Shown: in pieces, positions 21,184 through 50,258 of the stretch
Numbering within the stretch: the first letter of the stretch is position 1
Layout: every line of letters begins with the position of its first letter
Assembly: GCF_026107645.2 (NCBI RefSeq)
Contig: NZ_JAPCHV010000001.1
Span: 310,001 to 374,000 of the forward strand
DNA length: 64,000 nt
From: Flavobacterium sp. MFBS3-15
GTDB lineage: Bacteria > Bacteroidota > Bacteroidia > Flavobacteriales > Flavobacteriaceae
Reading direction: 5' to 3'
Notes under the pieces: model-generated
The model's input: only the letters and a program-made list of their open reading frames with translations
What the model was told of the DNA's origin: nothing
Databases searched by the model: none
Translations under genes and position numbers: made by a program

Positions 21184-21197
21184 CCAAACGCATAATT

Positions 21198-21947: not shown

Positions 21948-21969
21948 GGATTAAATAAAACCAAATACC

Positions 21970-24192: not shown

Positions 24193-24206
24193 TTTTAACG
24201 TAACGT

Positions 24207-25946
24207 TTACAGTCTGAATGTCTCACTCTGGCTTCCCGCAATATCGAGATTCAGGATGCCTTTCACAATACGTCCCGATGCCTCTTCTGCAAAGTCAAGC
24301 CCGGAATAGTCAGGATTGAATCCGCCCATATAAGGGACGGCCATCATGTAGACACGCTCATTATAGGCCCCAAACCGGTCCAAAACCTGAAAATAGTCAT
24401 TAATCCCTATTCCTGGCACCTTCAGGTAGTAATTTCCGGAAGAATCCTGCTCAATATTTTCAATGCCATCTTTCAGCATAAGCCCAGCCGCAGCGTTATC
24501 CTTGAAAGATAGCCGGGCGGGATTGATGGTACCCGCATCGGCAAGGCCGGGGAAAGGAAATTTTTCGATTGAAATCTGGGGTTGGCCGGTACAATCTATA
24601 AATACGGGATAGTCGATACATTCAGGGTCAGCAGAAGGACCGTAATGGTAACGAACCCCGCCGTCCGGCATCGGCTCTTCATAAGTGTCACTTTCTACAC
24701 TGAACAATTCCAGGCAGCCTGCTTGGTGCAGCGCGAGTATTTCCCGGCATGAGGACTGTGGCAGGAATGCTATGACGAGCGATATTAGCGGCTTAAGGTT
24801 TTTATTAAGCCTCAGCATGTCTTCAGCGGAAAAGTATTTGGCTGGATAATTCATTGCGAAGCTCAGCATTGCCAATAGCTCTTTCCAGTGAACGGATTCG
24901 TGCCGGCGTATTGATTTTTCGGCTTCTGCGTACTCGCCCCGCATCAGGTCAAACGGGTCCACAGTTTCCCTGAGCGACATTGCATCGGCAATAAAAGCTT
25001 CCATATCCATGTTCCTTATCCATTCATAATGTTCAGGATCTTTTTCGAGCAACAGCCTTTTGAAATCCCTTTCAAAAATATAGTCCAGTGAAACAAACCC
25101 GCCATTTTGCTCGCGGTGAGCCATCAGTTCGTCCCAGGTAAGCAGCGATGTATTTTTAAGCCTCGAATCATCCAGGTGGAAGCGTACCGATGGCAAATGG
25201 CCACCCCGGGAATGCAGGACGAGCTTAAACTTTGCACTTTCTTTTAGGGGGTTATAAGTTAAAAATCCATCGCTTCGTTCAGTAAAGGTGCCGTTGACCC
25301 GCGCCAAAGTGCGTATGGCATCAACTGCGGTAAGCGAAGCGCCTTTGATGGCGACACTGCAATTAACCCGTAATTTCAGCTTAGACGGGGGATATGGCGA
25401 CTGGAAGTATCCTGCCTGGGCATTTTCTTTATCACTTGGCCAATTGTGCCCTGTGCATATCACAACATGATCGAAATTGAAATTTCCCAAATTTCCTGTT
25501 ACGATCCGTACTGACGCCTTCTCGTCTGTAATGTCCGTTACAGTGGTGTTATAATGCACTTTAACCGAAACATTATTCTTTTCTGCTTTTTTGAGCAATA
25601 AATTGAAACTGTTTTCAAGATATTCCCCAAATATCAGGCGGGGCAGTACCCTGTAAGCTGAAAATCCTCTGCGCTCAATGCCGTAAGCTTTGAGGTGGCC
25701 GTCCGGTTGCAGTGCAATCCAGTTTTCAAGCGATATGCCTAACGCCGGGATTTCATTGGCCGAAACATTGGTTACATGTTCGGCTTCAGCGCCAAACTTG
25801 CCATAAGGCATACCTACACCAAGCCGGTCATGCTGTTCAAATATATCTATATCAAATTTGGCATCGGTCTCCAACAACCGCTTGAGCATAAACAGTGCTG
25901 AAGGGCCGCCGCCAATAATGGCGATAGTTTTATGTTTTTTATCCAT
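24207..25946 (-). CDS. FAD/NAD(P)-binding protein
   Basis: 579 residues. IAIIGGGPSALFMLKRLLE (about 8-26) is the FAD-binding motif, followed by IDIFEQHDRLGVGMPYG and HVTNVSANEIP, typical of the FAD-NAD(P)-binding family (PF13454-like). VVICTGHNWPSD is the second flavin motif, and VAIKGASLTAVDAIRTLARV looks like an NAD(P) site. The C-terminus has DRFGAYNERVYMMAVPYMGGFNPDYSGLDFAEEASGRIV. A flavin-dependent monooxygenase or oxidoreductase of the cytoplasm is likely. It starts just before the membrane-protein gene at 26005, which is also on the minus strand. Confidence 0.82.
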   Translation of the reverse strand: MDKKHKTIAIIGGGPSALFMLKRLLETDAKFDIDIFEQHDRLGVGMPYGKFGAEAEHVTNVSANEIPALGISLENWIALQPDGHLKAYGIERRGFSAYRVLPRLIFGEYLENSFNLLLKKAEKNNVSVKVHYNTTVTDITDEKASVRIVTGNLGNFNFDHVVICTGHNWPSDKENAQAGYFQSPYPPSKLKLRVNCSVAIKGASLTAVDAIRTLARVNGTFTERSDGFLTYNPLKESAKFKLVLHSRGGHLPSVRFHLDDSRLKNTSLLTWDELMAHREQNGGFVSLDYIFERDFKRLLLEKDPEHYEWIRNMDMEAFIADAMSLRETVDPFDLMRGEYAEAEKSIRRHESVHWKELLAMLSFAMNYPAKYFSAEDMLRLNKNLKPLISLVIAFLPQSSCREILALHQAGCLELFSVESDTYEEPMPDGGVRYHYGPSADPECIDYPVFIDCTGQPQISIEKFPFPGLADAGTINPARLSFKDNAAAGLMLKDGIENIEQDSSGNYYLKVPGIGINDYFQVLDRFGAYNERVYMMAVPYMGGFNPDYSGLDFAEEASGRIVKGILNLDIAGSQSETFRL

Positions 25947-26004
25947 TATGTAAAAGGGAGAACTATTTCGTATTTAAAAGATGGTTTATAAGATTCCTGA
26001 TCTT

Positions 26005-26499
26005 TCAGGCAAGGCGAATGGATCTTCTGTTTTTTAGTTGTAAGTTGCTGGCCATGGAATAAGCCCCCGCAGCAGCCAGGGTGAAAATGATATGTGCAAT
26101 AAAGAGTTGGCGATAATAGCCATAGCGGTAATTGTGCGGCGGGTTGTCGTGGTTGGCAAACATCATTTTCCAGATAAGTATCCCTACAATACCGCTGGCG
26201 GCACCGGTTATAATAATACCTAACGGGGAGGGATTTTTTAGTGCCCTGCGCCAAATGAGCCAGTACGCCGCAACGAACGCAACTCCGGCCACGTAATGCA
26301 ATCCCCAGCCCGCGGGGTGGCTTTCCTCGTCTTCAATTGCAGGAAGCGCGTCGGACCTTTGTATCAGCTTGTTGAGCATCACCGGCTCAAGGTACTGCTC
26401 ATTCTCCTTTTTTGACCGCCAATAGCTGTACAGCGTCATAAAAGTCGTTCCGATTATTCCGGCCACAATTATTTTCTCAGCAGTTTTCATAATATTCAA
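26005..26499 (-). CDS. Hypothetical membrane protein with four predicted helices
   Basis: 164 residues with four hydrophobic segments: IIVAGIIGTTFMTLYSYW, YVAGVAFVAAYWLIW, LGIIITGAASGIVGILIW and LFIAHIIFTLAAAGAYSMA. Between the first two lies an acidic loop (ALPAIEDEESH). His, Asn and Tyr cluster in HDNPPHNYRYGYY. No family assigned. An alternative ATG three codons in (26490) is possible. It is flanked by the FAD/NAD gene and, across a terminator, by the alcohol dehydrogenase gene. Confidence 0.72.
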   Translation of the reverse strand: MNIMKTAEKIIVAGIIGTTFMTLYSYWRSKKENEQYLEPVMLNKLIQRSDALPAIEDEESHPAGWGLHYVAGVAFVAAYWLIWRRALKNPSPLGIIITGAASGIVGILIWKMMFANHDNPPHNYRYGYYRQLFIAHIIFTLAAAGAYSMASNLQLKNRRSIRLA

Positions 26500-26507
26500 T
26501 AATAAAG

Positions 26508-26532
26508 CCCGCAGCAGGATTCCTGCTGCGGG
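26508..26532 (-). terminator. Terminator-like hairpin after the alcohol dehydrogenase gene
   Basis: Stem CCCGCAGCAGGA / TCCTGCTGCGGG with a single-base gap. The minus-strand exit side has only a weak T tract (CTTTATT). It lies between the dehydrogenase stop and the start of the membrane protein. Confidence 0.6.
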
Positions 26533-26543
26533 TTGGTTTTATC

Positions 26544-27713
26544 TTATGCCCACGGGTCTAAAACGACCTTTACGCAACCATCTTCCTTGTTCTTGAAGAT
26601 ATCATAGGCGTGCGCAATGTCGGTCAGCGGCAGCCTGTGGGTAATGATGTCATCGAGCGTCACTTTTCCTTCCTTGACATATCCCAGCAGCTTATCGATG
26701 TGCTTATGGGCGGGCGCCTGGCCGCCCTTGAGGATGATGCCCTTGTCGAAGAACTGCCCGATAGGGAAGTTGTCGTACGTGGTGGGGTAGACACCCAACA
26801 CCGATACGATGCCGCCCCTTCGCACCGCACTCATGCAGGCTTCCAGGACCTTTACAGAGCCTTTCTCAAAATTGACGACAGCTTTAGCCCTGTCCAAAAA
26901 GCTCCTGTCCGGCTCGAAGCCTACTGCCTCCACGCATACATCGGCACCACGGCCCTGCGTTATCGCCCGTATCTGCTCCACCACGCCTTTAGGGCCATCT
27001 TCCCACAAAACAGTCTCGCAGCCCGCTGTGGCTTTTGCCTTATCCAGCCTGTACTGCAGGGTATCGACTATTACCACGCGCGCTGCACCCCTGAGCCAGG
27101 CGCTCTTGGCAGCCATGATGCCTACCGGCCCGGCACCGAATATGGCGACTGTCTCGCCGCCCTTCACCTCACCCCAATCAATGCCGGTATAGCCTGTCGG
27201 GAAGATGTCGGTAAGGAACAGCACCTGCTCGTCGGTAAGGTTTTCGGGCACATGGCGCGGCCCGTAATTGGCGTAGGGGACCCTTACATATTGGGCCTGG
27301 CCGCCGTCATAGCCGCCGTACAGGTCGGTATACCCAAACAGTGCTCCTCCTTTTTCTGTCAACAGCCCGCCCTCAGGGCCGTAATGCTCAGGGTTGCTGT
27401 TTTCGCAATGCCCCGGAAGGTCGTGGTTGCAGAAAAAACAGCCTCCGCACGCAATAGGGAAGGGCACCACCACCCGGTCGCCTTTCTTCACATGGGTTAC
27501 GCCTTTGCCGACCTCTTCGACAATACCCATGAACTCGTGGCCGAGCACCATTGGCCTCGGCTGGGGAATCCCCCCGGAGAAAATGTGCAGGTCGGACCCG
27601 CAGATGGCTGTTGCGGTGACCTTGAGTATGATGTCATCCTGGTTTTCGAGTTTTGGGTCATCAATGTTATCGCAGGTGATTTTGCCCGGCGCATGGATTA
27701 CTGCTGCTTTCAT
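26544..27713 (-). CDS. Zinc-dependent alcohol dehydrogenase, formaldehyde-dehydrogenase-like
   Basis: 389 residues, MDR family with zinc. TAICGSDLHIFSGG holds the first catalytic ligand (Cys near 38), GHEFMGIVEEVG the second, and CGGCFFCNHDLPGHCEN the four structural-zinc cysteines. VAIFGAGPVGIMAAKSAWLRGAARVVIVD is the NAD-binding fold. The overall length and the GADVCVEAVGFEPD stretch match glutathione-independent formaldehyde dehydrogenase-like enzymes seen in stress clusters. A long antisense frame over this gene is a GC-driven shadow. It may detoxify aldehydes. Confidence 0.93.
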   Translation of the reverse strand: MKAAVIHAPGKITCDNIDDPKLENQDDIILKVTATAICGSDLHIFSGGIPQPRPMVLGHEFMGIVEEVGKGVTHVKKGDRVVVPFPIACGGCFFCNHDLPGHCENSNPEHYGPEGGLLTEKGGALFGYTDLYGGYDGGQAQYVRVPYANYGPRHVPENLTDEQVLFLTDIFPTGYTGIDWGEVKGGETVAIFGAGPVGIMAAKSAWLRGAARVVIVDTLQYRLDKAKATAGCETVLWEDGPKGVVEQIRAITQGRGADVCVEAVGFEPDRSFLDRAKAVVNFEKGSVKVLEACMSAVRRGGIVSVLGVYPTTYDNFPIGQFFDKGIILKGGQAPAHKHIDKLLGYVKEGKVTLDDIITHRLPLTDIAHAYDIFKNKEDGCVKVVLDPWA

Positions 27714-27947
27714 AGTTATAGCTTTTAGATGTTCTTAGTTAACAAATTGCCGGCCTCTCATAAAATTACTTCCTATTGGACAACACATGGGCAGCGCCGG
27801 ACAATATGGGAATTCAGTAAAGACCACGTCCCTCTATCTTGCTGCCGGCATCTCCCTTTATTGCCCCGGCTTGCGGTAGGGTCTCCTATGCCGTCCCCGG
27901 GGTTTCGCTCCGGTGGGGAGTTTGGCATCCTCGTCAGAAGGTGTTTT

Positions 27948-28478
27948 TTATAATAAGTTAGGATTCGAAGTCTCGGATAAGTTGCCTGTTGGCCGTTTGG
28001 CAGGAGGCTGCCGCAATAATTCCGCGGCAGCGGCATTGCCCTGCTGGAGGGCAAGGTCCAGGGCCGTCAGCCCACGTGCGTCAGTGATGTCTGCGCGAGC
28101 GCCATGCTCGAGCAACAGCTCTACGACATTATTGCGCCCGAACATCGCTGCAAACATCAGCGCCGTGCCGCCATTGCCGTGCTGGATATCCAGTCCTGCC
28201 CCGCGGCTGACCAGGATACAGGCGACTCCAGCATGCCCCTTGAAGCTCGCACCCATCAGGGCTGTATTTCCCCCGTTGTCTGCGAGGTCGGGATCGGCGC
28301 CCGCGTCAAGCAGTGCTGCCACGGCACCGGGCTGGTTGTTATAGGCTGCAATGATCAGTGGCGTAAAGCCCTTTTCATCGCGTACATTGACGTCGTCCAG
28401 CACGGAAAATATTTCCTCCAGCACCGGCACATTGCCCTGCCGTGCTGCCGCGAATAATGCCTGGGTAATTTCATCCAT
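27948..28478 (-). CDS. Ankyrin-repeat protein
   Basis: 176 residues with about four to five ankyrin units: DEKGFTPLIIAAYNNQPGAVAALLDAGADPD, DNGGNTALMGASFKGHAGVACILVSRGAGLD, HGNGGTALMFAAMFGRNNVVELLLEHGARAD, and ARGLTALDLALQQGN. No signal peptide. Ankyrin repeats mediate protein binding. In bacteria such short ankyrin genes often sit by catalases and stress genes, and here they sit by the alcohol dehydrogenase and the ferritin-like gene. The last about 25 residues are unstructured. Confidence 0.9.
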   Translation of the reverse strand: MDEITQALFAAARQGNVPVLEEIFSVLDDVNVRDEKGFTPLIIAAYNNQPGAVAALLDAGADPDLADNGGNTALMGASFKGHAGVACILVSRGAGLDIQHGNGGTALMFAAMFGRNNVVELLLEHGARADITDARGLTALDLALQQGNAAAAELLRQPPAKRPTGNLSETSNPNLL

Positions 28479-28543
28479 GGTAAGTTATTTTTAAAGCCAT
28501 TACAAGGTACAAAATGCTGCTGTTGAGCCTCCTTAATGTTTTC

Positions 28544-29119
28544 CTAAATCTTCAATTCATCATCGGGAGCATCAAAGCTGATAGGGTAAGGCCTGTTAAA
28601 GCCAAGATGCTTTTCCGACATCAGCTTGCCCAGCACCACGATGCCGCTGCACGTCCAGGCCGCCCGGTAATCCATCCCGTCAAGAAACGGCAGCAGCTTT
28701 TGGAAGGTATCGTGCGATATCTTCTTAGCCAGGGCGATGTGCGGGGATTTCGCATTCGACCTCAGCAGCCCGGCCATTTCGGTGATGGGTTCCGGATCAG
28801 CAACCGTAAGGTAGACTGTCACGCTATGCCCGTGGTCAAAATGTCCCCATCCGTCAATAGTGACCGGGAACGGATGGCATTTCCCCAAAAGGTGACTTAC
28901 TGCCTGCGGAAATGCCTCATCATCGGTAAGCTTTTCAGTGAGGGTGATGTGCGCAATGGAGTGCAGGTTGCGCTCACCGATACCCGCAACCTGGTCAAGT
29001 TCTTTTTTCAGCCGGGCAACATCCGCCTTTACCTCGTCGGGAGGCGAGATCACCACCAGGTACGCATACAGCGGTCCGAATAGCGATTCCTGGTTATATA
29101 TCCTTTTCTTTGCGCACAT
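28544..29119 (-). CDS. 2'-5' RNA ligase-like 2H phosphoesterase
   Basis: 191 residues. Two HxT/S-type motifs mark the 2H phosphoesterase superfamily: HITLTEKL about residue 57 and HIALAKKI about residue 133, the second with Ala instead of Thr or Ser at the third position. The rest fits the LigT/YjcG fold (YLVVISPPDEVKADVARLKKEL; FPVTIDGWGHFDHGHSVTVYLTV). It could act on 2',3'-cyclic or 2'-5' phosphodiesters. It sits upstream of and on the same strand as the ankyrin gene. Confidence 0.82.
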   Translation of the reverse strand: MCAKKRIYNQESLFGPLYAYLVVISPPDEVKADVARLKKELDQVAGIGERNLHSIAHITLTEKLTDDEAFPQAVSHLLGKCHPFPVTIDGWGHFDHGHSVTVYLTVADPEPITEMAGLLRSNAKSPHIALAKKISHDTFQKLLPFLDGMDYRAAWTCSGIVVLGKLMSEKHLGFNRPYPISFDAPDDELKI

Positions 29120-29139
29120 GTGGCAGGGTTTAATAAAAA

Positions 29140-29169
29140 AAAGGTAAGCATCCCATGACGCCTACCTTT
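29140..29169 (-). terminator. Terminator after the YdaT-like gene
   Basis: Inverted repeat AAAGGTAAGC / GCCTACCTTT (one G-U pair) with a 10-base loop. On the minus strand it is followed by a run of T (A run at 29134-29141). Confidence 0.75.
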
Positions 29170-29189
29170 TGATCATGCCGGGATCCCGG

Positions 29190-29360
29190 CTATTGTTTTT
29201 CCTCAAAGAATTGGCGCGCCCGCTTCAGCCCCGTGGCTATTGCCTCCCCTTCCTCAATCCCTTCTTTGAGCAGGGCGTTGGCGATCTCAACCGCCTTTTC
29301 CCGGATATCCTCGGGCTGGTTCTTATAAGAAGGGGGGTAATCCCCATTATACCACGGCAT
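29190..29360 (-). CDS. Small YdaT-like stress protein
   Basis: 56 residues, ATG at 29360-29358, stop at 29192-29190. MPWYNGDYPPSYKN at the start and EDIREKAVEIANALLKEG then ATGLKRARQFF resemble the short YdaT-type proteins known from the Bacillus general stress regulon and widespread in soil bacteria. The function is unknown. The stop of the ferritin-like gene is at 29363, two bases upstream of this start, so the two are co-transcribed, and a terminator follows. It is too short for the usual frame threshold but is convincing by sequence. Confidence 0.8.
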   Translation of the reverse strand: MPWYNGDYPPSYKNQPEDIREKAVEIANALLKEGIEEGEAIATGLKRARQFFEEKQ

Positions 29361-29362
29361 GG

Positions 29363-29929
29363 CTAAAGCGTTTCGGGCTGATCTTCGTCAGCAGCTTCCA
29401 GGTTAATGCTGTTGTAAGCGGCTTCGGTAAGGGCCTCATCCGCCTGCTTTTCCTCGGCCAGGGTTTCCTCCAGGAGCGCAGCGATATCGTCATGCCCCAA
29501 TATTTTTGCAAACGCGGCAAGGGTGCCGTATGACGCGATTTCGTAATGCTCGATCTTCTGCGAGGCCGAAATGATCCCGGCATCCCTCACAGGCCCGGCT
29601 TCTGTTTCCTCCAGTATCCCTTCGCCTTCCTTGATAAGGCCTTCCATAGCATCACATTTTTTGCCCCGGTCGGATTCGCCGAGAATTTCGAAGACCTGCT
29701 GCAGGCGTGAAACCTGGCCCTCGGTGACCGCGATGTGGTCTTCGATAGCCATCTTCAGGCTGGCATCGGTCGCATTGTTTGCCATCTTGGGAAGCGCTTT
29801 GAGCAAGGCGCGCTCGGCGTAGATGATATCTTTCAGCTCATCCACAAAAAGTTCCCTGAGCCCTTCCGCAGCCGAAGGCTTCGCTGCAACTTTTCTCCCG
29901 CTGTCGTTCTGGTTGGTAGAATCTGCCAT
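29363..29929 (-). CDS. Ferritin-like domain protein (YciE/YciF type, DUF892)
   Basis: 188 residues. After a polar N-terminus (1-22) the ferritin-like four-helix bundle starts with GLRELFVDELKDIIYAERALLKALPKMANNA. It contains Glu and His residues suited to a di-metal site: DHIAVTEGQVSRLQQVFEILGE, SQKIEHYEIASYGTLAAFAKILG, and LLEETLAEEKQADEALTEAA. This is the YciE/YciF family, linked to osmotic and oxidative stress. Co-transcribed with the YdaT-like gene. Likely cytoplasmic. Confidence 0.92.
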   Translation of the reverse strand: MADSTNQNDSGRKVAAKPSAAEGLRELFVDELKDIIYAERALLKALPKMANNATDASLKMAIEDHIAVTEGQVSRLQQVFEILGESDRGKKCDAMEGLIKEGEGILEETEAGPVRDAGIISASQKIEHYEIASYGTLAAFAKILGHDDIAALLEETLAEEKQADEALTEAAYNSINLEAADEDQPETL

Positions 29930-30020
29930 GATATAGGTGTTTTAAGATTATGCCTTAAAATTACGGCACAGGATGTACCGGCTATGGTAAGCTTTTCTTA
30001 ATTTGCTAATTTTTAACATC

Positions 30021-30503
30021 TTACTCTTTTTCAAGTTCCCTGATAATCAGTTCCGCCGTCCGGTCGATCGCCTGCATTATAATCGCTTCGGCACTGCCCC
30101 TGTACACTTCGGCATGCGCTACGAAACCCTTGGGGTACAGGATATGGATGAACATCGTACCGACAGGCTTGTCAGGTGTTTCGCTGCCTCCGGGGGACAC
30201 CAGGCCGGTGACGGCGACAGTGATGTCGGACCTGAACAGCTTTGATGAATGCTCCGCCAGCGACTGGGTCACCTGTGCTGATTCGGGTGTGTGTTCCGCG
30301 ATAAGCTGCGGTGGCACCTTTATCAGCTTTTCCTTGACAAAAACCTTGTAGCAGGATATACCGCCAAGCAGTATCTCTCCCGATTTAGGGGTAAGTGAAA
30401 ATTCGGAGCACATCCTTCCGGCGGTGGCGCTCTCGATGAATGCGATGCTATAGCCTTTTGCGGCTATGGCCTTGCTGCAGTCCGATACTAATTTAGATGG
30501 CAT
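30021..30503 (-). CDS. CinA C-terminal domain protein (nicotinamide-nucleotide amidase, PncC-like)
   Basis: 160 residues, the stand-alone CinA-C domain. ESATAGRMCSEF (about 24-35) is the conserved active-site segment with Ser, then GGISCYKVFVKEKL and AVTGLVSPGGSETPDKPVGTMFIHI, the usual nucleotide-binding glycine stretch. The enzyme would deamidate nicotinamide mononucleotide to nicotinate mononucleotide in NAD recycling. The N-terminal MoCF-like domain of full CinA is absent, as in PncC. It sits immediately downstream of the DUF6766 gene on the same strand. Confidence 0.92.
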   Translation of the reverse strand: MPSKLVSDCSKAIAAKGYSIAFIESATAGRMCSEFSLTPKSGEILLGGISCYKVFVKEKLIKVPPQLIAEHTPESAQVTQSLAEHSSKLFRSDITVAVTGLVSPGGSETPDKPVGTMFIHILYPKGFVAHAEVYRGSAEAIIMQAIDRTAELIIRELEKE

Positions 30504-30515
30504 AATTGGCAGGTT

Positions 30516-31172
30516 TTATTCACCGGTTTCATTATTAGGGGCGTCGACGGGTTTCGATTGGGGCGAACCGATTTGGCGAAGATAGACCGACAGGATGACT
30601 ATGGCAAAGACCGACAGGAACTCGCTCTGCCAGTTCTGGAAAGATTCGAACCAGAACCGCGGCTCCAAGAGGTATCCCGAAGCATCAAGTGCGGGTTTGC
30701 CTTTGCTTACGCGCTGGACGTTCTCATCGCGCAGGCTCCCGCTGAAATGAAGGCAGCAGCTCACGGCGAATAAGCCAAGGAGGGCTATGGTAAGGGAATG
30801 CTTGTAGAGAACCAGCACCCATCCCCCGCGGCGGACCGGCCACGGGGCGCCGGTGCGTTTTGGGTCGGGCTTCCGGTCAACTTCCTCCTTCTTATCCGGG
30901 TCCTTGCTTTCCGAGGAGCCCTTCTGGATAAGGAAGATCGTAAGCACAACGAACAGTGCCATCTGGAGAAACTCGGACTCCCAGTTTTCGAAGGTCGCCT
31001 GCAGGAAATGGCCCGAGGAAAGGTAGTTTCCCAGGTTTGCGGGAAGCATGCCGTTATCCGCCAGTTCCTGGTTGTATTCCTTAAGCCCAAAGTATACCTG
31101 GCCCGCAACAGCCAGCAGGAAGAGCAGGAAAAATGCAAGTGACAGGGCGTTATTGCGCGCGAAGGCCTTCAT
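30516..31172 (-). CDS. DUF6766 family membrane protein with an internal duplication
   Basis: 218 residues, a family of membrane proteins of unknown function. Four hydrophobic segments fall in two halves. Each half ends with a similar phrase: FENWESEFLQMALFVVLTIFL then GSSESKD in the first, and FQNWQSEFLSVFAIVILSVYL then GSPQSKP in the second. The linker is charged (DPDKKEEVDRKPDPKR). The repeat suggests two tandem hairpins derived from one ancestor. It starts just past 31172 and faces the divergent small gene at 31362, with CinA-C following 12 bases downstream. Confidence 0.88.
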   Translation of the reverse strand: MKAFARNNALSLAFFLLFLLAVAGQVYFGLKEYNQELADNGMLPANLGNYLSSGHFLQATFENWESEFLQMALFVVLTIFLIQKGSSESKDPDKKEEVDRKPDPKRTGAPWPVRRGGWVLVLYKHSLTIALLGLFAVSCCLHFSGSLRDENVQRVSKGKPALDASGYLLEPRFWFESFQNWQSEFLSVFAIVILSVYLRQIGSPQSKPVDAPNNETGE

Positions 31173-31283
31173 ATTTTTTTTACCATAAAGTTAGCCTCTG
31201 TACCTGAAGTTTCCATAGGATTTAGAAAAAAATTAGCTATCATGTACATCAGGTTCTTATAGCCGTACGTCTTTTGCGTGTTT

Positions 31284-31315
31284 TTTGCAACTTTTTGAAC
31301 GAAATTGTAAATTTT
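31284..31315 (+). promoter_or_regulatory. Bacteroidota-type promoter before the small gene at 31362
   Basis: -33 TTTG at 31284-31287, 20-base spacer, then TAAATTTT at 31308-31315 (one mismatch to TAnnTTTG). Confidence 0.5.
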
Positions 31316-31361
31316 CAGTTAGGCCCAATAATGTAACTTCACAGCCATAACACCTATAGCC

Positions 31362-31640
31362 ATGAAAAAGTATTCGCTCGATCCTGACGGTATTTCAGCG
31401 TTCCACGACATGATAGGCGCCCTGGGGGACGAAGGGCTCGTCCGGCACGCACAGGCTGCCTCCACCGACTTCCTCAGCTGGGCCGCCGGCAACTTTGAAC
31501 TGGACGTGAGTCTCTTGGAGGAACTTCGCGCGCTACCGGGGCGTTTCCTGCTGCAGGCGGGCTGGTGGGCCGGCGCATGCCTTGTAGGAAGGATGCCGCT
31601 GCATTTCCTGTTCAGCTGCCTGGTACGCAGGGCGTTTTAA
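31362..31640 (+). CDS. Small hypothetical protein
   Basis: 92 residues, no family recognised. A soluble N-terminal part (SLDPDGISAFHDMIGALGDEGLVRHAQAA) precedes a moderately hydrophobic C-terminal half (RFLLQAGWWAGACLVGRMPLHFLFSCLV), perhaps one membrane segment. A promoter-like pair lies 47-78 bases upstream. GC-rich like the stress block. Reading frame and promoter support a real gene, but no function can be suggested. Confidence 0.55.
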   Translation: MKKYSLDPDGISAFHDMIGALGDEGLVRHAQAASTDFLSWAAGNFELDVSLLEELRALPGRFLLQAGWWAGACLVGRMPLHFLFSCLVRRAF

Positions 31641-31711
31641 TAAAACTATAACAGTCAAACGCTGCCGTTATCGGGTGAAAAGCCCTATCTTTATCGCCAA
31701 AGACCAACGCT

Positions 31712-32140
31712 ATGAGTAAAAGAGGGCCGATAATTGTCATTGATGACGATGAGGATGACAGGGAGATAATGAGGGAGATCTTAGAGAGCCTGGGCCAGGA
31801 GAATGCCGTAGTGACATTGCCTGACGGTGATACGGCGCTCGATTACCTCAGAAATACTGCCGTCAAGCCCTTTATGGTCATTTCCGATATCAATATGCCA
31901 AAGATGAACGGATATGAGCTTCGCGACCGCATATTGCGCGACGAGCTGCTGAGCCGGAAATGCGTACCCTATATCTTCTTTACGACGTCTGCGGCCGAAG
32001 AGACGGTCGAGAAAGCATACCAGCTTTCCGTGCAGGGGTTCTTTCATAAGGTCAATGATTATAACCATTACCGCTCGCTTTTGGAAAAAGTCCTTTCGTA
32101 TTGGAAAGAGGCAGATATACCAAAATTAGGCATCGCATAA
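31712..32140 (+). CDS. Single-domain response regulator (CheY-like)
   Basis: 142 residues, a lone receiver domain. IVIDDDEDD (about 8-16) carries the acidic pair, SDINMPKMNG contains the phosphoacceptor Asp (about residue 60), FFTTSAAEE holds the switch Thr, and VQGFFHKV the conserved Lys. No output domain follows. This is the Rcp1-like type common in Bacteroidota, where it works with hybrid kinases. No kinase is adjacent. It ends the stress block and is followed by about 200 bases without a gene before the PRTRC cluster. Confidence 0.93.
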   Translation: MSKRGPIIVIDDDEDDREIMREILESLGQENAVVTLPDGDTALDYLRNTAVKPFMVISDINMPKMNGYELRDRILRDELLSRKCVPYIFFTTSAAEETVEKAYQLSVQGFFHKVNDYNHYRSLLEKVLSYWKEADIPKLGIA

Positions 32141-32358
32141 AAAAGAATTTAAAAATCCCTATTCATTTATCGTTGGTAAGGTGTTCAACGACACATGCCA
32201 GAGTGCCTGATTCCGTCAGATAACAGTATCCGTTGTCTGCCGGGGCTGAACAGGATAGCTTATGGATTGGAGACCTTGCTGGTTTTGTCGGAGGTAGGAG
32301 CAGTCCCGCGCCGCACAGAAACCCGCAAGACAGGGTTCTATGCGGTGTGGCGCGATTT

Positions 32359-33132
32359 TCAGACGGGCAGGGACGATGCCTTGAACTCCCCAAGGTTCAG
32401 GAAGCAGCCCCTATTGGCTGTATAGCCGTTCCGGAATAGCTGCCATAACAGCGAGCAGCCTGCCTGTGCAAGGGTGCTGTTGATGAATAAGTCCTGCCTC
32501 TCAAGGGCTTCGGCGAGGGAGCAGCTTGGCGCATTATCCGTGTCGGATTGTCGCAGCAACTCCCCAAATTCTTCCGTAATGAACGGCAGGCATTCCACCG
32601 TTTCAAACTTGTCCGAATTCGGCTGCTTTACCTTGCCGATAGTGGACAGGATAACCTGCCCCGTGTCCCTGCTGTTCCCGAAATCCATCCAGTACCTTGG
32701 GATATTGGCATAGTGCTTCCTGCCATCGTCCCGCAGCAATGCCTCGGCGATGGCAAAGCGTGCAGCTGCGCTGTCCACGCAGGATATATAAAGGGCAGCC
32801 CTTACGTTGGTATCTGCATCAAATCGCCTGTTCACGGCTTTCCACATCGTGCCGAAAAATCGGTTGCAGCGCGTTATCAATGCAGCAGATTTTGAAAGCC
32901 CGACCTCACACTCGGCGAACAGCTGCCTGCCACGGTTGGCTTCGGTCACTACATCATCGTCCCACAGGCTCACCTGAAACCCTGCATGCCCGAGGGCTTG
33001 CAGGCTATGGCTCATCCGTGCGAGGGCGGTCAGTACCTGTGAGCCTGTGCCGCCCGCCCCGATGAGGCAGACTTCGATGGCGTTGGTCGGGTTGAGCAGT
33101 TCGGGGGCTATAAAATGGGCTTTTGGTTTCAT
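32359..33132 (-). CDS. PRTRC system ThiF-family protein
   Basis: 257 residues. VCLIGAGGTGSQVLTALARM (about 22-41) is the ATP-binding Rossmann motif of ThiF/E1-like enzymes, followed by VSLWDDDVVTEANRGRQLF with the acidic and Arg residues of the adenylation site, and YISCVDSAAARFAIAEAL. This matches the PRTRC ThiF protein that accompanies ParB-related PRTRC clusters on Bacteroidota and proteobacterial mobile elements. Its start shares one base with the stop of the protein B gene. The role in the cluster is unproven. Confidence 0.9.
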   Translation of the reverse strand: MKPKAHFIAPELLNPTNAIEVCLIGAGGTGSQVLTALARMSHSLQALGHAGFQVSLWDDDVVTEANRGRQLFAECEVGLSKSAALITRCNRFFGTMWKAVNRRFDADTNVRAALYISCVDSAAARFAIAEALLRDDGRKHYANIPRYWMDFGNSRDTGQVILSTIGKVKQPNSDKFETVECLPFITEEFGELLRQSDTDNAPSCSLAEALERQDLFINSTLAQAGCSLLWQLFRNGYTANRGCFLNLGEFKASSLPV

Positions 33133-33842
33133 CAGAACAGGTCTTTAAGGGTTTTACCATTGGGCAGCGATACATCGACAGGGAAGGGGCTTCCCGTTTC
33201 CATAAGTTGTTTATACAGGCTTACGAGGTTGCCGTGGACGGGGGAGTTCCCGCCGATGAAGTGGCTGAAATAACTATCAAAGAAATATCCTTCCCATGCG
33301 GCGATGAATTCCTCAAGCGAGGCGGTCTTTGAAATTTTTACACTTACGTTTCCCATACACACGTTCCCGTTTTCATACAGGTTCATAAACGGGGCGTAGC
33401 AGAGCGGTGTATTTAGGCTTAACTTTCTCTTGCCTTTGCCTTTCAGGGCATAGAGGAACAGCCTGTTCCTGTCCGCTGCCCACACCAAGGCAGGCAGATG
33501 AAGCCGTCCTGACGGCAGCCCGAGGCTATCGGCAAAATGCAGGGTTTTCGCCTGCGGCTTGGTGTACCATACCACGCTCCCTTTTTCGCAGGGGTTGAGA
33601 TGCAGCACACAGGGAGGCAGTAAACCCTCCGGTCGCAGGAAAGCTTTTTCAGCTTCCTTCCTGACATCGAGTGCCTTGGCAAGCCCACGCGCTTCCCGCA
33701 GGGTAAGCGGCCGCGGATTTAGAGGGCATCCGTTGTCGTCCATATCGTAATGCTCAATGTACAGTCTCTGCTCATTGCCGTCGGGCTTGAACAGCACGAG
33801 GGCGGCGGCGGGGTGGTACAGCGTTGGGCTATCGGTTTCCAT
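33132..33842 (-). CDS. PRTRC system protein B
   Basis: 236 residues, matching the pattern of PRTRC protein B: YHPAAALVLFK at the start, FLRPEGLLPPCVLHLNPCEKGSVVWYTKPQ, then LPALVWAADRNRLFLYALKGK and PLCYAPFMNLYENGNVCMGNV (a YxPFxN-type phrase typical of the family). A single cysteine-rich zone is not obvious. The stop overlaps the ThiF start by a base and its start overlaps the preceding gene by 14 bases, so the genes are translationally coupled. Function unknown. Confidence 0.88.
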   Translation of the reverse strand: METDSPTLYHPAAALVLFKPDGNEQRLYIEHYDMDDNGCPLNPRPLTLREARGLAKALDVRKEAEKAFLRPEGLLPPCVLHLNPCEKGSVVWYTKPQAKTLHFADSLGLPSGRLHLPALVWAADRNRLFLYALKGKGKRKLSLNTPLCYAPFMNLYENGNVCMGNVSVKISKTASLEEFIAAWEGYFFDSYFSHFIGGNSPVHGNLVSLYKQLMETGSPFPVDVSLPNGKTLKDLF

Positions 33843-34998
33843 ACTCTTTGTTGTTTAGTATATCGCATAAGTCATCCATCAGGCGGAAGAGCCTGCATTC
33901 AAAATCAAGGCTATCGTTCTCGTGCGCCCGACCGTCAAAGATGCGGCGCAGTACAGGCTCTTGTATCTGCGTGTATTCGCCGAACTCGGCGTTCACGCAT
34001 TCGGACAGGGTTTGGTACAGCCACCCTTTCGTATTGGCGCAGAAGCTGATGTATTTGTCCATCGTGATGCAATCCTCATCGCCATAGTCGTCGGGGTCGG
34101 GCAGTACGCTCCCGTCTGCATTGCGGTACAGGCTCTCCTGCGGGTAGTCCCGTATCAGTTGCAGGCAGTCGTGCGCCAAGGATAAGCAGTCCCAATCATA
34201 GGCATCGCGCGGGACAAGTTTTTCGGCATTGGCTTGCAGGTGCTCAAGGCTGTAGGTGTTCCACAGCCTGCGCTGCATCACCGCGCCGATATGCTGCGCC
34301 TCGTGCAGCTGCGAGCGTTGCTGCCAGTAGTGTTCCTGCTCCCATCCCTCGGGGTCGGCTTCGACCCACTCGGCTATCATATCATATTGCCAACAGAGGT
34401 AACTGCCCTCATCACGGTAATGCGGCATCCCTGCCCTGTGGAACAGGTAGCCGCACACCCCGAGCAGCAGGGCTGCCCCTTTGCGCCGACTGCGGTCTTT
34501 CATCAGGTAATGCAGGGGTACGAGCGGGATGTAATAGAGCGTATTGCCCGTGCAGTACGTTTCTGTGGCGGCAAGGCAGGCCGTATTATCCTGCTGCTGC
34601 ACTTCAAGGGAGATACTTTCCTCCTTTACCTTTCGCAGCAGCTTATCCGCTTCCCACAGGACTAATGCCCTGCTGTAGGGATAGCCGAGGTGGTGGGTCG
34701 GTGTGAGGGAAATGCCGTAATGCGTTGTGAGCAGCCCGAGGGAGCGGAAGAAGGCTTCTTCTTCCTGTGGGGCTGCCACAGTTCCCTGCCCTGCAAGGTG
34801 GGGCAGGAAGCGGCATTTCAGAAAACCATAGGCAGCAGCCCCTGTGGGGCGGATTGCAGCCTGTCGCGCTGCACCTCCGCGGCATCCCTTCGGCGGGAGA
34901 GTTGCAGGATGAATTCCCCTGCGCCTTGGTGCAGCTGCTTTTGGCTTCTGTCTTGGGGCAGGCGAAGCTGCCCCGCTATAGTGTGTTGCATCGTCCAT
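33829..34998 (-). CDS. PRTRC cluster protein (position of protein F)
   Basis: 389 residues, high in Ala, Arg and Pro at the N-terminus (1-50, low complexity), then a globular part with YPYSRALVLWEADKLLRKV, LVPLHYLMKDRSRRKGAALLLGVCGYLF, and several Trp/Gln-rich helices (EGWEQEHYWQQRSQLHEAQHIGAVMQRRLW). Its place between proteins C and B matches the F slot, but sequence similarity to F was not established by eye. The N-terminal start is uncertain because of low complexity. It is separated from protein C by 10 bases. Confidence 0.6.
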   Translation of the reverse strand: MDDATHYSGAASPAPRQKPKAAAPRRRGIHPATLPPKGCRGGAARQAAIRPTGAAAYGFLKCRFLPHLAGQGTVAAPQEEEAFFRSLGLLTTHYGISLTPTHHLGYPYSRALVLWEADKLLRKVKEESISLEVQQQDNTACLAATETYCTGNTLYYIPLVPLHYLMKDRSRRKGAALLLGVCGYLFHRAGMPHYRDEGSYLCWQYDMIAEWVEADPEGWEQEHYWQQRSQLHEAQHIGAVMQRRLWNTYSLEHLQANAEKLVPRDAYDWDCLSLAHDCLQLIRDYPQESLYRNADGSVLPDPDDYGDEDCITMDKYISFCANTKGWLYQTLSECVNAEFGEYTQIQEPVLRRIFDGRAHENDSLDFECRLFRLMDDLCDILNNKEYGNR

Positions 34999-35008
34999 AA
35001 TATATAGT

Positions 35009-35227
35009 TTATCCTTTAGTCCCCATCAGGCTCTCAAAGCGGTATTGCACCGCATCGTTATCAATCACGGGGCCGCTGACTTTAGCGGTCGTGAGCAGGG
35101 GGTAGGTGTTGGCATAGAAGTGCAAGACCGCATCCACGCTCCACGCGGGGTCGGGGTCAGCCAAGGTAATCTCTGCCTGCTGTTCCTTCATCGTGAACAG
35201 CCTCGGCATCAGGTGTGTTGTCATCAT
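35009..35227 (-). CDS. PRTRC system protein C
   Basis: 72 residues. LADPDPAWSVDAVLHFYANTYPLLTTAKVSGP followed by YRFESLMGTKG is the PRTRC protein C signature (DPxPxWSVexV...FYA...YP, ending GTKG). The 5' end overlaps the 3' end of the protein E frame (stop at 35157) by 71 bases, an unusual but known tight packing. An internal ATG at 35191 is an alternative start. Small soluble protein, function unknown. Confidence 0.85.
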   Translation of the reverse strand: MMTTHLMPRLFTMKEQQAEITLADPDPAWSVDAVLHFYANTYPLLTTAKVSGPVIDNDAVQYRFESLMGTKG

Positions 35228-35585
35228 AATCTTGGGTATTAGATTCTACAAGTGTCTCGGGGGCGGCAGCCACGAACAGGTCGGGAGCGAACTGCTTCGA
35301 CAGGCTTGCCCTGCGCGCGCGCAGCGTATCGGCTCGGTCAGGATAGTCGGAAGGCTGCGGCACTTTGCTCCACGCGTCCTTAAATTTTCCTTCTGCCTCG
35401 AGGGCATCCACCTGCGCTATCGCCTCAAGGTATTTCTTCTCCTTAGGATCTTGCGGTACAGCCTTTTCGGCTTTGTCCGCTTTATCGCTTTTCTCCGCCT
35501 TTTTCTTTCCCATTGCGGATTGCTTCTTCGCTTCTTCCTGCCCTTTGAGGAACTGCTCCATATTGAGAAGCAGCTGGGGTCCAGT
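35157..35585 (-). pseudogene. PRTRC system protein E, C-terminal fragment (5' truncated)
   Basis: The frame reads from about 35585 into the first ATG at 35561-35559: GPQLLLN then MEQFLKGQEEAKKQSAMGK, a Lys/Ala-rich stretch (AEKSDKADKAEKA), and DPKEKKYLEAIAQVDALEAEGKFKDAWSKVP, which is the C-terminal half of PRTRC protein E. The N-terminal domain (about half of the usual protein) is missing: at about 35571-35585 the sequence changes to the other gene's coding strand, and an in-frame TGA follows at 35594-35592. Cut by a rearrangement, so almost certainly not functional. Confidence 0.85.
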
Positions 35586-36004
35586 TAGACTTCAAAGACG
35601 CAGACGACAAAGGCAACTTTGCGGTGAAGCAGTACCATGAGAATTATGGCTACGACCTTGAGGCCACTTTGGCAAAGCATCCCATTAAGGAACTGGAGAA
35701 CAACTCCCACAGGGATGATCTTATTAATTCGCTAAAAAAAGGCAACCTGCAATCTGCTACTTTCATAAAGGACGGGCAGGAAGTGAAGCAGTACATCGAG
35801 GCTAACCCGCAGTTCAAAAGCCTGAACATTTATGATGACGCCCATAAGCGTGTCGATGTCAATCAGGCCAAAGCCCAAGGTGAATCACAGCATGAAGGCC
35901 AGCGCCAGAAGGAATCTCAGAAATCCAAAGCGGAAGAGGGCGACGAGGATGGCCCCGGTGAGCAAAAAGAGAAAAAGCAGCGTCGTAAATCCAGAAGCAT
36001 ATAA
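35567..36004 (+). pseudogene. DUF3945-type mobile-element protein, C-terminal fragment (5' truncated)
   Basis: The frame opens at 35567 right after a TGA and reads GVQLDFKDADDKGNF, KQYHENYGYDLEATLAKHPIKELE, SLKKGNLQSATFIKDGQEVKQYIEANPQFKSLNIYD, then a basic, Gln/Lys-rich tail (KKQRRKSRSI). This is the C-terminal repeat unit and tail of the DUF3945/DUF4099-type protein found next to topoisomerase genes in Bacteroidota integrative elements. The only candidate start is a GTG at 35624, well inside the conserved block, so the 5' part was lost at the junction with PRTRC protein E. Confidence 0.82.
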
Positions 36005-36006: not shown

Positions 36007-36291
36007 ATGAACTTACTTGAGCCCCTTACCGCCTTCTTTGAGCGAACGCGCAGCGACCAGCGTATAGGCAATACGCATATCGGCATTTACGCGGCACTCT
36101 TGCAGTACCGGCTGGAAAGGGGCTTTTGTAATCCTGTGGATGCCATCAGCACCGAAATTATGGACATTGCCAAAATTTCCGCGCATAAGACCTACTATCG
36201 CTGCCTTAAAGAAATGAATGAATATGGTTATCTGCGTTATGTGCCCTCCAAAAAAAAGAACAGGGCCAGCAAAATTTATTTTCAGGTTTGA
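36007..36291 (+). CDS. Small mobile-element protein, winged-helix-like
   Basis: 94 residues. Starts two bases after the DUF3945 stop, so they formed one transcript. LEPLTAFFERTRSDQRIGNTHIGIYAALLQYR looks like a first helical unit, and TEIMDIAKISAHKTYYRCLKEMNEYGYLRYVP is a helix-turn-helix followed by a wing, as in replication-initiator or transcription-regulator winged helices. It resembles, at lower identity, the protein at 36578-36883. Likely DNA-binding; role in the element unknown. Confidence 0.7.
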   Translation: MNLLEPLTAFFERTRSDQRIGNTHIGIYAALLQYRLERGFCNPVDAISTEIMDIAKISAHKTYYRCLKEMNEYGYLRYVPSKKKNRASKIYFQV

Positions 36292-36306: not shown

Positions 36307-36603
36307 ATGGACGAAATGGAAGATGGTGTTACCAAAGAAGATCTACGCCAGTTCGGGATGCTCCTGATCGGCACAATCCGAAAAATGATAGAAGGGTCGA
36401 AGCAGGCAGAAACTGGAGAAGTTGAGGTAGAATGGCTAAAAGCACGGGTTGTCAGGAAAATGCTGGATATTTCAGCTGCTTCACTCCAAAATTTAAGGAT
36501 AACCGGTAAAGTAAGGTTTAAAAAAGTTTTAGGGTCGTACTACTATAATAAAAATGATCTACTACAATTATTCAACAATGAAAGCAAACCGGATCAACAT
36601 TGA
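36307..36603 (+). CDS. Helix-turn-helix protein of mobile-element type
   Basis: 98 residues. The N-terminal half is helical and charged (KEDLRQFGMLLIGTIRKMIEGSKQ). The C-terminal half, VEWLKARVVRKMLDISAASLQNLRITGKVRFKKVLGSYYYNKNDLLQLF, is the excisionase/MerR-like helix-turn-helix found in small regulators of Bacteroidota integrative elements (the last phrase, tyrosine-rich then NDLLQLF, is typical). Probably excision or transfer control. It overlaps the next gene by 26 bases. Confidence 0.8.
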   Translation: MDEMEDGVTKEDLRQFGMLLIGTIRKMIEGSKQAETGEVEVEWLKARVVRKMLDISAASLQNLRITGKVRFKKVLGSYYYNKNDLLQLFNNESKPDQH

Positions 36604-36883
36604 AAAGTTCTATACCAATTTGAAAATATTCGAACTGGATAAACGCTTAAATACATGGCATTTTTCATTGCTTGTAGCTCTTCTCATAATTGCGATAAAG
36701 CAGGGAAGGATTGTGAAGCTAAAGGTAAGCAGGCGCAAAATTATGTCCCTCTCTCATATAAAGACTCTACCAACCTATCATAAATACTTGAAAGACTTAC
36801 AAGATTTTGGGTATTGTAGTTACAGGCCATCATACCATCCCGGGGTGAGGAGTGAAATTGATCTAAACAACCTGTACTTTTAG
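36578..36883 (+). CDS. Small protein related to the 36007 gene
   Basis: 101 residues from the ATG at 36578; an ATG at 36554 lies deeper in the upstream gene. FYTNLKIFELDKRLNTWHFSLLVALLIIAIKQ resembles the first unit of the 36007 protein, and PTYHKYLKDLQDFGYCSYRPSYHPGVRSEI the helix-turn-helix and wing. The pair probably arose by duplication. AT-rich, ends 16 bases into a strong terminator at 36865-36896. Function unknown. Confidence 0.65.
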   Translation: MKANRINIEKFYTNLKIFELDKRLNTWHFSLLVALLIIAIKQGRIVKLKVSRRKIMSLSHIKTLPTYHKYLKDLQDFGYCSYRPSYHPGVRSEIDLNNLYF

Positions 36884-36966: not shown

Positions 36967-37575
36967 ATGACGCAAAACAAATCAGGGTCTCCTCTTAAAG
37001 TTATGGTGGCATCAACCATCTATGGTTTTGAGTATCCAATCAGTCAGGTTTGCACAATTCTTAAGGAATATGGTTACGATGTGCTTAACTCCCATATGAA
37101 AACCATTCCGGTTGACCCTCGTCTCTCTAATACAGATAATTGTTTAGCAGCAGTACGTAGTGCTGATATTGTGTTTGGAATTCTGAGGCCCCGCTATGGC
37201 GCGGCGCCGGGAGATGAATATTCTATTACCCATCTTGAAATGCTCGAAGCTATCGCTCTGAATAAACCAAAATGGTTTATAGCGCATCGGGACATATCTG
37301 TTGCCAGACAATTACTTAAACAGTATATGTATTTAGAAGATGGAAAAACTGCAAACCCCCATTTTAAATTTAATGGTATTCCTATACTTGATGATATTCG
37401 GCTCATCCATCAATATAATGATACTATCCGGAATGAAGTGAAACCTGCTGATCGCGTAGGTCATTGGGTGGACGAATTTTATGATGTTCCGGACATCATA
37501 CAGTGTGTAAAGACTCAGTTCCATGATTTAGAGCGTGTAAGAAATATTGTTGAACAAATGAATCCCCAACCATGA
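36967..37575 (+). CDS. DUF4062-domain protein, first gene of a candidate defence operon
   Basis: 202 residues. The N-terminus (KVMVASTIYGFEYPISQVCTILKEYGYDV) and SADIVFGILRPRYG, then YSITHLEMLEAIALNKPKWFIAHRD, follow the DUF4062 pattern: a Rossmann-like domain related to TIR and nucleoside-deoxyribosyltransferase folds, usually N-terminal in signalling or defence proteins. Here it stands alone with a C-terminal extension. Catalytic Glu may be Glu in ITHLEMLEA, by analogy to those folds (inference). Its stop overlaps the start of the ATPase gene by four bases (ATGA). Low GC unlike the neighbours. Confidence 0.85.
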   Translation: MTQNKSGSPLKVMVASTIYGFEYPISQVCTILKEYGYDVLNSHMKTIPVDPRLSNTDNCLAAVRSADIVFGILRPRYGAAPGDEYSITHLEMLEAIALNKPKWFIAHRDISVARQLLKQYMYLEDGKTANPHFKFNGIPILDDIRLIHQYNDTIRNEVKPADRVGHWVDEFYDVPDIIQCVKTQFHDLERVRNIVEQMNPQP

Positions 37576-39119
37576 GAGAAGAAGAACTTATTCGCGATTT
37601 AATAAATTCAGGTGAAGGGGAGCAGCTTGAATTTAAGCAGTCTGTACATCAGGAATCCATAGGCATGACTCTATGCAGTTTCCTAAATACAAATGGGGGG
37701 CGGATTATAATAGGTGTTAATGATGAGGGTGCTATAAAGGATATTCCTGATATTGATGCAGTGGTAGAGAGGCTCAAAAGATACTTGGTAGCTTCTATTG
37801 TTCCAGAGGTACCCATCACTATAAGTAAAGATTATTTTGAAGGGCACAGTCTAATCATGGTCAAAGTGTATAAGGGTTCAAATCCCCCCTACATATTTGA
37901 TGGCAGTATTTATTACCGTAGAAAAGATTTAAGTGTAAAAGCAACTTCGCAAGAGATATCAGAATTAATACACGGAAGGAGACAATCAGATGTTCATTGG
38001 GAGAGAAAGCCTTCGTTGCCTGTTGAATTTGAGGATTTGGATGAAAAACTGATTAAGAAGACGATTGAAGAATCGAGAATTAACCATCGGAGTAATTTTA
38101 ATTCAGAAAGTATTATTGATTTTCTATCTCACTTTGGATTATATCAAAATGGCTATTTTACTAATGCTTGTGTAGTTTTGTTTGCCAAATACCCGGCAAA
38201 ATTTTTACCACAGGTTAGAGTGAGACTTACAGAATATGGAGACAGTAAAATTGGAGATTCGTTGATTAGGGATGAGGTATTTGAAGGCAATTTATTCGAT
38301 ACCAGGGATAAACTTGAAAATTATATCAACAATCTTGGTATACGTAGTGCCTTTTCAAATAACCAATGGAAGCGCATTGACTTTAAGTTTCCAACCAAAG
38401 CCTTGCAAGAAGGAATAATTAATGCCCTCATGCATAGAGATTACAGCAATGTGTCTAGTGGAGTAGCCATAAGTGTTTACCCAGATAAATTAATTATATC
38501 AAATAGTGGCCATTTGCCAAATAATATTAAAGTCAGTGAATTGCGAAAGAGCCATATCTCACATCCAGTGAATCCGGATATCGCTCATATTGTTTTCTTA
38601 AGAGGTTTAATTGATAAGTTAGGTCGAGGTACACTTAAAGTTATTGACGAATGTCAGAAGGAAGGTCTTAAAGATCCAATCTGGAAAGATGGTAGAGATG
38701 GAATCACCCTCACTTTTAATGGTCCTAAACTTGTAACTAAGCGTCCAATAATTAAAAACATTCATTTTAAAGATTCACTTCGTGATTTAAATGATGGTAA
38801 TAATGATGGTAATAAGGTTATAGATAGTAAGGTATATAAAATTGTTGAAACAATAATTAATGATGCTGTAGATGATGGAGCTATCAGTCAAGTAGGACCG
38901 GTAATTATTGAGGAGCTATCTAACATTATACAATTGCTAATAGCACAAGGAGAAGTAACAACGACTGATATAACTAACTATATAGATAAGTCAAAGCCAA
39001 CGGTCGAGCGTTATATAAGTTTAGCAAAGAAAGTAGGTCTGCTAAATTATAGGGGTACACGTAGACAAGGAATATATTATCTGACTGATAACGTTAAATC
39101 TAAATTAGATCAACTTTGA
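37572..39119 (+). CDS. AlbA_2 (Schlafen-like) and GHKL-type ATP-binding protein, second gene of the operon
   Basis: 515 residues. Residues about 8-130 are the AlbA_2/Schlafen-like domain (GEQLEFKQSV, MTLCSFLNTNGGRIIIGVNDEG, PPYIFDGSIYYRR). About 160-400 is the HATPase_c_4 type domain (FPTKALQEGIINALMHRDYSN, LIISNSGHLPNN, FLRGLIDKLGRGTLKVIDEC). After a linker with Asn-Asp-Gly repeats (407-414) comes a C-terminal winged helix (about 450-510; TDITNYIDKSKPTVERYISLAKKVGLLNYRG). Such proteins act as DNA- or RNA-binding regulators or, in defence islands, as effectors. Start overlaps the DUF4062 stop. Confidence 0.9.
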   Translation: MREEELIRDLINSGEGEQLEFKQSVHQESIGMTLCSFLNTNGGRIIIGVNDEGAIKDIPDIDAVVERLKRYLVASIVPEVPITISKDYFEGHSLIMVKVYKGSNPPYIFDGSIYYRRKDLSVKATSQEISELIHGRRQSDVHWERKPSLPVEFEDLDEKLIKKTIEESRINHRSNFNSESIIDFLSHFGLYQNGYFTNACVVLFAKYPAKFLPQVRVRLTEYGDSKIGDSLIRDEVFEGNLFDTRDKLENYINNLGIRSAFSNNQWKRIDFKFPTKALQEGIINALMHRDYSNVSSGVAISVYPDKLIISNSGHLPNNIKVSELRKSHISHPVNPDIAHIVFLRGLIDKLGRGTLKVIDECQKEGLKDPIWKDGRDGITLTFNGPKLVTKRPIIKNIHFKDSLRDLNDGNNDGNKVIDSKVYKIVETIINDAVDDGAISQVGPVIIEELSNIIQLLIAQGEVTTTDITNYIDKSKPTVERYISLAKKVGLLNYRGTRRQGIYYLTDNVKSKLDQL

Positions 39120-50192: not shown

Positions 50193-50258
50193 AAAGGCTT
50201 TTCGAGACGTTTTGTGCGTTTTTGGCAACTTTGAAAAGTGTGCCGTAAACCGTCTTCG

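Follow-up and report, generated by a model that had tools for sequence, protein, structure and literature searches.

The window, the whole 64,000-nucleotide stretch of DNA analysed here, contains a junction at 35574-35577 at which the 3' part of the gene for PRTRC protein E (minus strand) meets the 3' part of a gene on the opposite strand (hereafter the plus gene), the 5' parts of both being absent. At least 15 further scars, two from this same genome, have their plus-side endpoint at the identical base and are joined to other partners. Conjugative elements are usually assumed to decay at random. Base-coincident scars in three transfer genes imply specific, repeated cutting of these elements in one genus. 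Such fixed breakpoints offer a direct route to the responsible enzyme and make conjugative-element decay testable.

A deletion scar in a decayed conjugative element

Homology to protein E runs to 35573, and homology to the plus gene is found from 35576/35577 on. The minus-strand open reading frame at 35157-35561, the reading of which extends to the junction (3' part at 35157-35575), matches the Pfam family PRTRC_E (PF19556) at profile positions 83-173 of 175 only, and about 80 additional N-terminal residues of protein E are present in intact relatives. On the plus strand, the remaining 3' part (35577-36004) comprises 142 residues, with full-length relatives having at least about 123 residues upstream of the junction point; in intact elements this gene comes next after traN. 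The joint (35574-35577) lies between the E tail and the GG of a plus-gene Trp codon, the first letter of which is here G. The head of the plus-gene tail is devoid of ATG, GTG or TTG codons, the earliest GTG occurring at 35624. An initial annotation had described both genes as truncated at the 5' end and abutting on opposite strands, which the profile match and these limits confirm. Its label of the plus gene as DUF3945-type is unsupported: neither the tail nor a full-length relative gave such a match, or any other, in Pfam and NCBIfam, with just a far sub-cutoff Pfam match for the tail. The plus-gene fold found no match in the PDB at E 0.001.

The junction was mapped on a complete relative, contig C37 of genome G087, where both genes are whole, as had been claimed for intact elements. 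Protein E lies far left on the minus strand and the plus gene far right, the two sites being divergent and 57.3 kb apart; the tra operon, mobilisation genes and cargo fill the interval. The left half of the element reads small left-end ORF, ThiF-B-F-E (minus), cargo, MobC, and relaxase plus MobA (minus); the right half reads cargo, TraG-J-K-M-N (plus), the plus gene, a 94-aa protein, an HTH_17 protein and an integrase-like ORF. In this layout a deletion from E to the plus gene gives head-to-head tails from geometry alone. A deletion left this junction as a scar: a PRTRC-bearing conjugative element has decayed and lost the segment between E and the GG of the Trp codon. Of the deletion or inversion suggested at first, the deletion stands, and inversion is disfavoured: searches did not locate the lost N-terminal halves at other broken places of the genome, and the lost 5' halves are not seen joined elsewhere in this genome or among the genus matches listed. 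In this genome the N-terminus of protein E was detected only in the intact copy on contig C17, and the search turned up three plus-gene tails and no N-terminal half. That the junction dates a deletion, as the annotation also had it, goes too far.

The window holds a remnant of approximately 19 kb, probably integrated at ssrA, because a tyrosine integrase gene (48650-49954, minus strand; PF00589, PF13102, PF17293) adjoins the tmRNA gene (ssrA, 50258-50651, minus; ARAGORN) and imperfect 15-nt repeats begin at 31280 and 50218. The integrase would be that of the remnant and ssrA its putative integration target. The left attachment-like repeat, GTTTTTTGCAACTTT (31280-31294, plus), a candidate end of the remnant, matches the right one, GTTTTTGGCAACTTT (50218-50232, plus, beside the tmRNA), over 15 nt with one mismatch. 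A small plus-strand ORF (31362-31640) has relatives in contig C13 of this genome and near the left end of G087:C37 (blast, 34-36% identity). The ThiF, B, C and E genes of a PRTRC system lie together in the window, with E truncated: a full-length ThiF-family protein (32359-33132; TIGR03736, 248 bits), protein B, a prokaryotic E2 (33132-33842; PF14460, 5e-31; TIGR03737, 102 bits, under the cutoff of 131), and protein C, a prokaryotic ubiquitin (35009-35227; TIGR03738 and PF14454), all on the minus strand. Between B and C, a 389-aa protein (33829-34998, minus), which gave no family match in Pfam or NCBIfam searches, occupies a constant place in PRTRC clusters (46-49% identity in L006, L007, L008 and L014). 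To the right of the junction follow, on the plus strand, the 94-aa protein (36007-36291; tblastn), an HTH_17-like protein (36307-36603; PF12728, 23.6 bits, under the cutoff of 27) with homologues at the same place in L048, L053 and L012, and a 109-aa protein next in the right arm (36554-36883; tblastn, no Pfam match). By tblastn, the 94-aa protein stands directly after the plus gene in three of three intact loci and in seven of eight other scars examined; it was not found next to the tail on contig C7 of this genome. Matches to TraG, TraJ and MobC in this genome are confined to C17 and are gone from the window copy.

At 36967-39119, the right arm of the remnant encodes a DUF4062 protein and, after it, a protein of the AlbA_2/Schlafen type that ends in an HTH-like part; the latter has weak defence-type PADLOC matches and the former none, and the two genes are possibly a defence pair. 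G+C content is 0.50-0.59 in 18 of the 20 one-kb bins of 16000-36000 (0.44 and 0.496 in the remaining two) and 0.34-0.46 in the first 16 kb of the window. The remnant accounts for just 31.3-36 kb of the high-G+C stretch, and 16-31 kb may be another island. A different 389-aa protein within it (26544-27713), by eye presumably a zinc-type dehydrogenase, is 91% identical to one near the second scar of this genome on C13 (L012:12314-13480). An ORF near that scar (L012:8962-9411) resembles what we take to be a LigD polymerase-domain fragment.

The intact G087 element resembles the Bacteroidetes conjugative transposons or ICEs characterised by a TraG-TraN operon and MobC (NCBIfam Bac_Flav_CT, Bacteroid_MobC): TraG, TraJ, TraK, TraM, TraN and MobC all score over curated cutoffs, and a relaxase, MobA/VirD2-like, and an integrase-like ORF are encoded besides. 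In contrast to such ICEs, the window copy holds PRTRC, right-arm genes, integrase and attachment-like repeats and is devoid of TraG, TraJ and MobC. ICE remnants known as cis-mobilisable elements (CIMEs) retain attachment sites and have lost conjugation genes, and the window remnant is like them in its attachment-like repeats and lost conjugation genes. To our knowledge, CIME endpoints have been treated as arbitrary, whereas the endpoints described here fall repeatedly on the same bases in each of three transfer genes.

A recurrent, base-exact breakpoint in the plus gene

A set of 398 genomes of the genus, one per species, was searched with the full-length plus-gene protein, and matches were found in at least 88. 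The genus is probably Flavobacterium, to judge from the named contigs coding for the closest relatives of protein E. Among the matches listed, the first query residue is 122-125 in at least 16 truncated copies, with one more such copy lying at a contig edge. Left out of the 16 were the contig-edge copy (G031:C486), a frameshifted match on G066:C31 with a row starting at 61, two copies that are not truncated (L114 and a second tandem copy in L091), and L131, which we read as a MobC/Trp-codon scar with a later internal deletion. Full-length genes read Tyr-Asn-(Ala/Ser/other)-Trp, with Trp in 50 of 50 aligned intact genes, and the GG of its codon (T^GG) is kept in all 16 listed scars, more often than chance would give. 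The base preceding GG is T in six, G in four, A in four and C in two; the scars with T may have retained as much as a few native bases. The plus-side endpoint is thus a recurrent, base-exact breakpoint, common to at least 16 scars with 11 different left partner sites.

This genome alone has three plus-gene tails with the same start and differing left neighbours: protein E in the window, ThiF on C13, and on C7 the DNA just past a gene we assume to be multicopper-oxidase-like. Elsewhere, ThiF is the partner in L012 (the C13 scar) and L053, cut at the same base, and MobC in L048, L049, L050, L103 and L109. HsdS (PF01420) is joined in L051, a DUF3761-like ORF (sub-cutoff) in L052 and an unnamed ORF in L107. 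The partner is a DnaE-like protein in L104, and two AraC-like proteins cut at different points in L106 and L108, these names being our presumptive ones from sequence. The L105 scar is joined to the 5' part of TraK, which has the same orientation, and is hence not head to head.

The 16 listed tails stay open in reading for 137-144 codons, as would be expected were a functional C-terminal domain selected and deletions observed at its boundary. This is highly improbable: the endpoint falls on one exact base, the window tail begins without a start codon, and an AlphaFold model (mean pLDDT 78) places Trp124 inside a beta strand (120-132) rather than at a domain edge. Cassette or domain shuffling is disfavoured by the same exactness and model. 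In the 50 intact genes, codon choice around the Trp codon shows no special (synonymous) conservation.

An assembly error at the window junction is unlikely because the same endpoint occurs in other species, including single-contig genomes (G130, G136). In G031, a contig begins at the hot site and overlaps an intact contig by 72 nt, with no third contig bearing that stretch; this assembly break is a hint of ongoing events. Across 397 genomes of the family, four had a match and no further scar was found. Six records of a plasmid collection hold distant full-length relatives of the plus gene or most of one. Intact loci, L020 and L021 among them, often carry the plus gene twice in tandem; the second copy has diverged and has the same Trp codon, and no scar was found in it among the matches listed.

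The truncated tails could in principle descend from an ordinary single deletion with random endpoints, the common endpoint going back to one old truncation that descent and homologous recombination had spread. Homologous exchange could indeed swap tails as far as the junction, and the tails of the window, L012 and L104 group as a truncated clade without a close intact sister. These three are weaker as evidence of independence because of that missing sister, and some shared history among them is possible. We consider a single old truncation improbable for the set as a whole, given that 11 different left partner sites meet at the same GG. On a quick tree of 68 tails, in which 24 forks among 64 inner branches are open, the truncated state needs 13 changes, at least five of which are forced by well-supported branches, and a single truncated clade is rejected (AU p 4.4e-35). 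The state is scattered approximately as shuffled labels would be (13 changes against a mean of 14.5), which fits many origins. Furthermore, in 9 of the 16 listed scars the first 60 nt past the junction match an intact gene at 85-98% identity, and L050 and L106, both 0.97-0.98 identical to the same intact gene after the cut, have different partners.

Breakpoints in other transfer genes

Truncation recurs at one codon in MobC (684 aa) as well. In 43 genomes, nine truncated copies start at residues 391-398, all nine junctions lying at Asn397/Ala398. Four kinds of right partner are joined there: the Trp codon of the plus gene (five scars, and one with a presumed later internal deletion), TraJ, an HTH gene, and the N-terminal part of a second, diverged MobC. 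The remaining matches start elsewhere (residues 508 and 531, and 218, 216, 235 and 350 in more distant relatives) or are weak fragments, contig-end pieces and one frameshift near 390. In L134 (G052:C81), a small frame-shifting change splits MobC near residue 390, just upstream of the hot codon; it resembles a short duplication and may be a footprint left by an excised element. A motif near-identical to the Trp site also lies inside MobC on the minus strand (G087 28063, G379 8995), a position at which the MobC matches from the 43 genomes show no hot spot.

The recurrence of both ends in the MobC/Trp-codon scars is what a site-specific recombinase of loose specificity would produce by deleting between two sites, with MobC or others on the left and the Trp codon on the right, and the native MobC and Trp-codon sites do have a short common core (ATGCAT in G087). 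Most of the other left partners, by contrast, have no common core by eye, fillers and one-base losses occur, and the reciprocal product is absent among the matches listed. A recombinase explains the MobC/Trp-codon scars and not the others, and as an overall account we regard it as quite unlikely.

For TraG, nine matches in 59 genomes start far inside the protein, eight of them at one codon (Met-Ala) and the remaining one at 760. The base before the hot codon is G in all eight, like the native ATG, and two of the eight are internal deletions with the N-terminal part just before. Three TraG scars from different genomes (L162, L164, L166) have a common left partner, by eye presumably an alpha/beta-hydrolase-like gene, cut just before the same Gly-His-Ser motif. 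TraJ, taken as a control in the same 59 genomes, has two N-truncated rows at different residues, one of which is again at the GG of a Trp codon. A rule that right ends fall at GG at every site is suggestive only; among the three MobC scars with other right partners, TraJ fits with its Trp codon and the HTH gene probably does not. ThiF was rejected as a further hot spot: of 398 genomes, 82 gave a match, and no copy apart from the two already known is cut at that codon.

Cleavage and joining of ends

Both the precision and the recurrence of the breakpoints are observed directly, and the cutting enzyme is putative. The reading we favour, with confidence evenly balanced, is that conjugation genes are broken repeatedly at specific sites and the ends then joined. 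A sequence-specific cut of the element that tolerates synonymous changes, whether a double-strand break or a nick, would leave an end at T^GG that is retained untrimmed. The partner end would come from a second hot cut, as in MobC, or be resected or random. End joining, plausibly of the Ku type, would then connect the two with 0-2 filler bases. The resulting element would keep integrase and attachment ends, lose the transfer genes, and become fixed as a non-conjugative remnant. The precise ends and the 0-2 filler bases fit cleavage followed by end joining. A Ku gene was found in 13 of 20 genomes searched and in 12 of 17 scar-bearing ones; Ku as the sole joiner is disfavoured because it was not found in the other five. 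The lack of special codon conservation around the Trp codon speaks against strict DNA recognition. The near-identical motif inside MobC, not itself a hot spot, also counts against the favoured reading, and no common motif was seen between hot left ends and hot right ends.

A nick to which later deletion is anchored could also account for the pattern. A relaxase or other HUH nickase would use T^GG on the plus strand as a secondary cutting site and remain on the 5' end, and aborted transfer or rolling-circle replication, closed early at a variable 3' end, would make the right end precise and the left end variable. This pattern of ends is known for VirD2 and T-DNA and for the M13 and pC194 origins; at the T-DNA right border, cut by VirD2, one end is precise and the other variable. 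The scars are alike in having one precise and one variable end, and differ in that the cut is without clear oriT resemblance. The polarity is as such a nick would have it, the retained DNA running from GG through the right arm and the left partner being mostly a minus-strand gene, and GG is untrimmed in 16 of 16 listed scars. The intact element encodes a MobA/VirD2-like relaxase. Upstream of mobA, 15 of the 19 loci with a mobA match (22 examined) have an oriT-like motif of the CTCGGAACTCG type next to a hairpin, and three of 19 such regions contain AACTCGTGG, which resembles the site's AAY-KCN-TGG. Against this, when 49 intact loci are scored with a matrix built from 15 oriT-region sequences, with the nic position assumed, the Trp site has a median rank of 22% if compared with TGG sites and of 7% if compared with all positions. 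Relative to TGG sites, the site in TraG does better in some genomes (3-29%) and that in TraJ does worse (39-63%). By the map, moreover, the oriT motif would be on the opposite strand of the element. Left ends recur too (MobC), and the partner in L105 is a plus-strand tra gene. A nickase-capped end thus also accounts for the one-sided precision, with little support from the sequence, and we judge it unlikely, albeit deserving of some weight. An oriT inside the plus gene was considered and rejected, the Trp site having no clear likeness to the motif upstream of mobA.

Under the favoured reading of cleavage and end joining, the cutting enzyme might be a nuclease, encoded by the host or a rival, that targets conserved codons in conjugation genes and disarms conjugative elements; the scars would then be the signature of an anti-conjugation system. 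This extension is rather unlikely as a whole. Its targets would be the plus-gene Trp codon, Met-Ala in TraG and Asn-Ala in MobC; it would tolerate synonymous changes in the manner of homing endonucleases and leave end-joined, non-transferable remnants.

No report of these breakpoints was found in the open-licence literature, judged mostly from listings. Integrative elements that use the oriT of ICEs as their insertion site are reported to recognise conserved transfer-region sites (PMC7563843). The present case differs in that no inserted element is seen at the junctions examined and the 5' half is lost, not displaced. RecHS of IncA/C plasmids is reported to be a short, highly recombinogenic backbone sequence initially taken for oriT, which forms and resolves plasmid cointegrates (PMC5587640). 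Unlike RecHS, the hot sites described here bound deletions inside coding genes.
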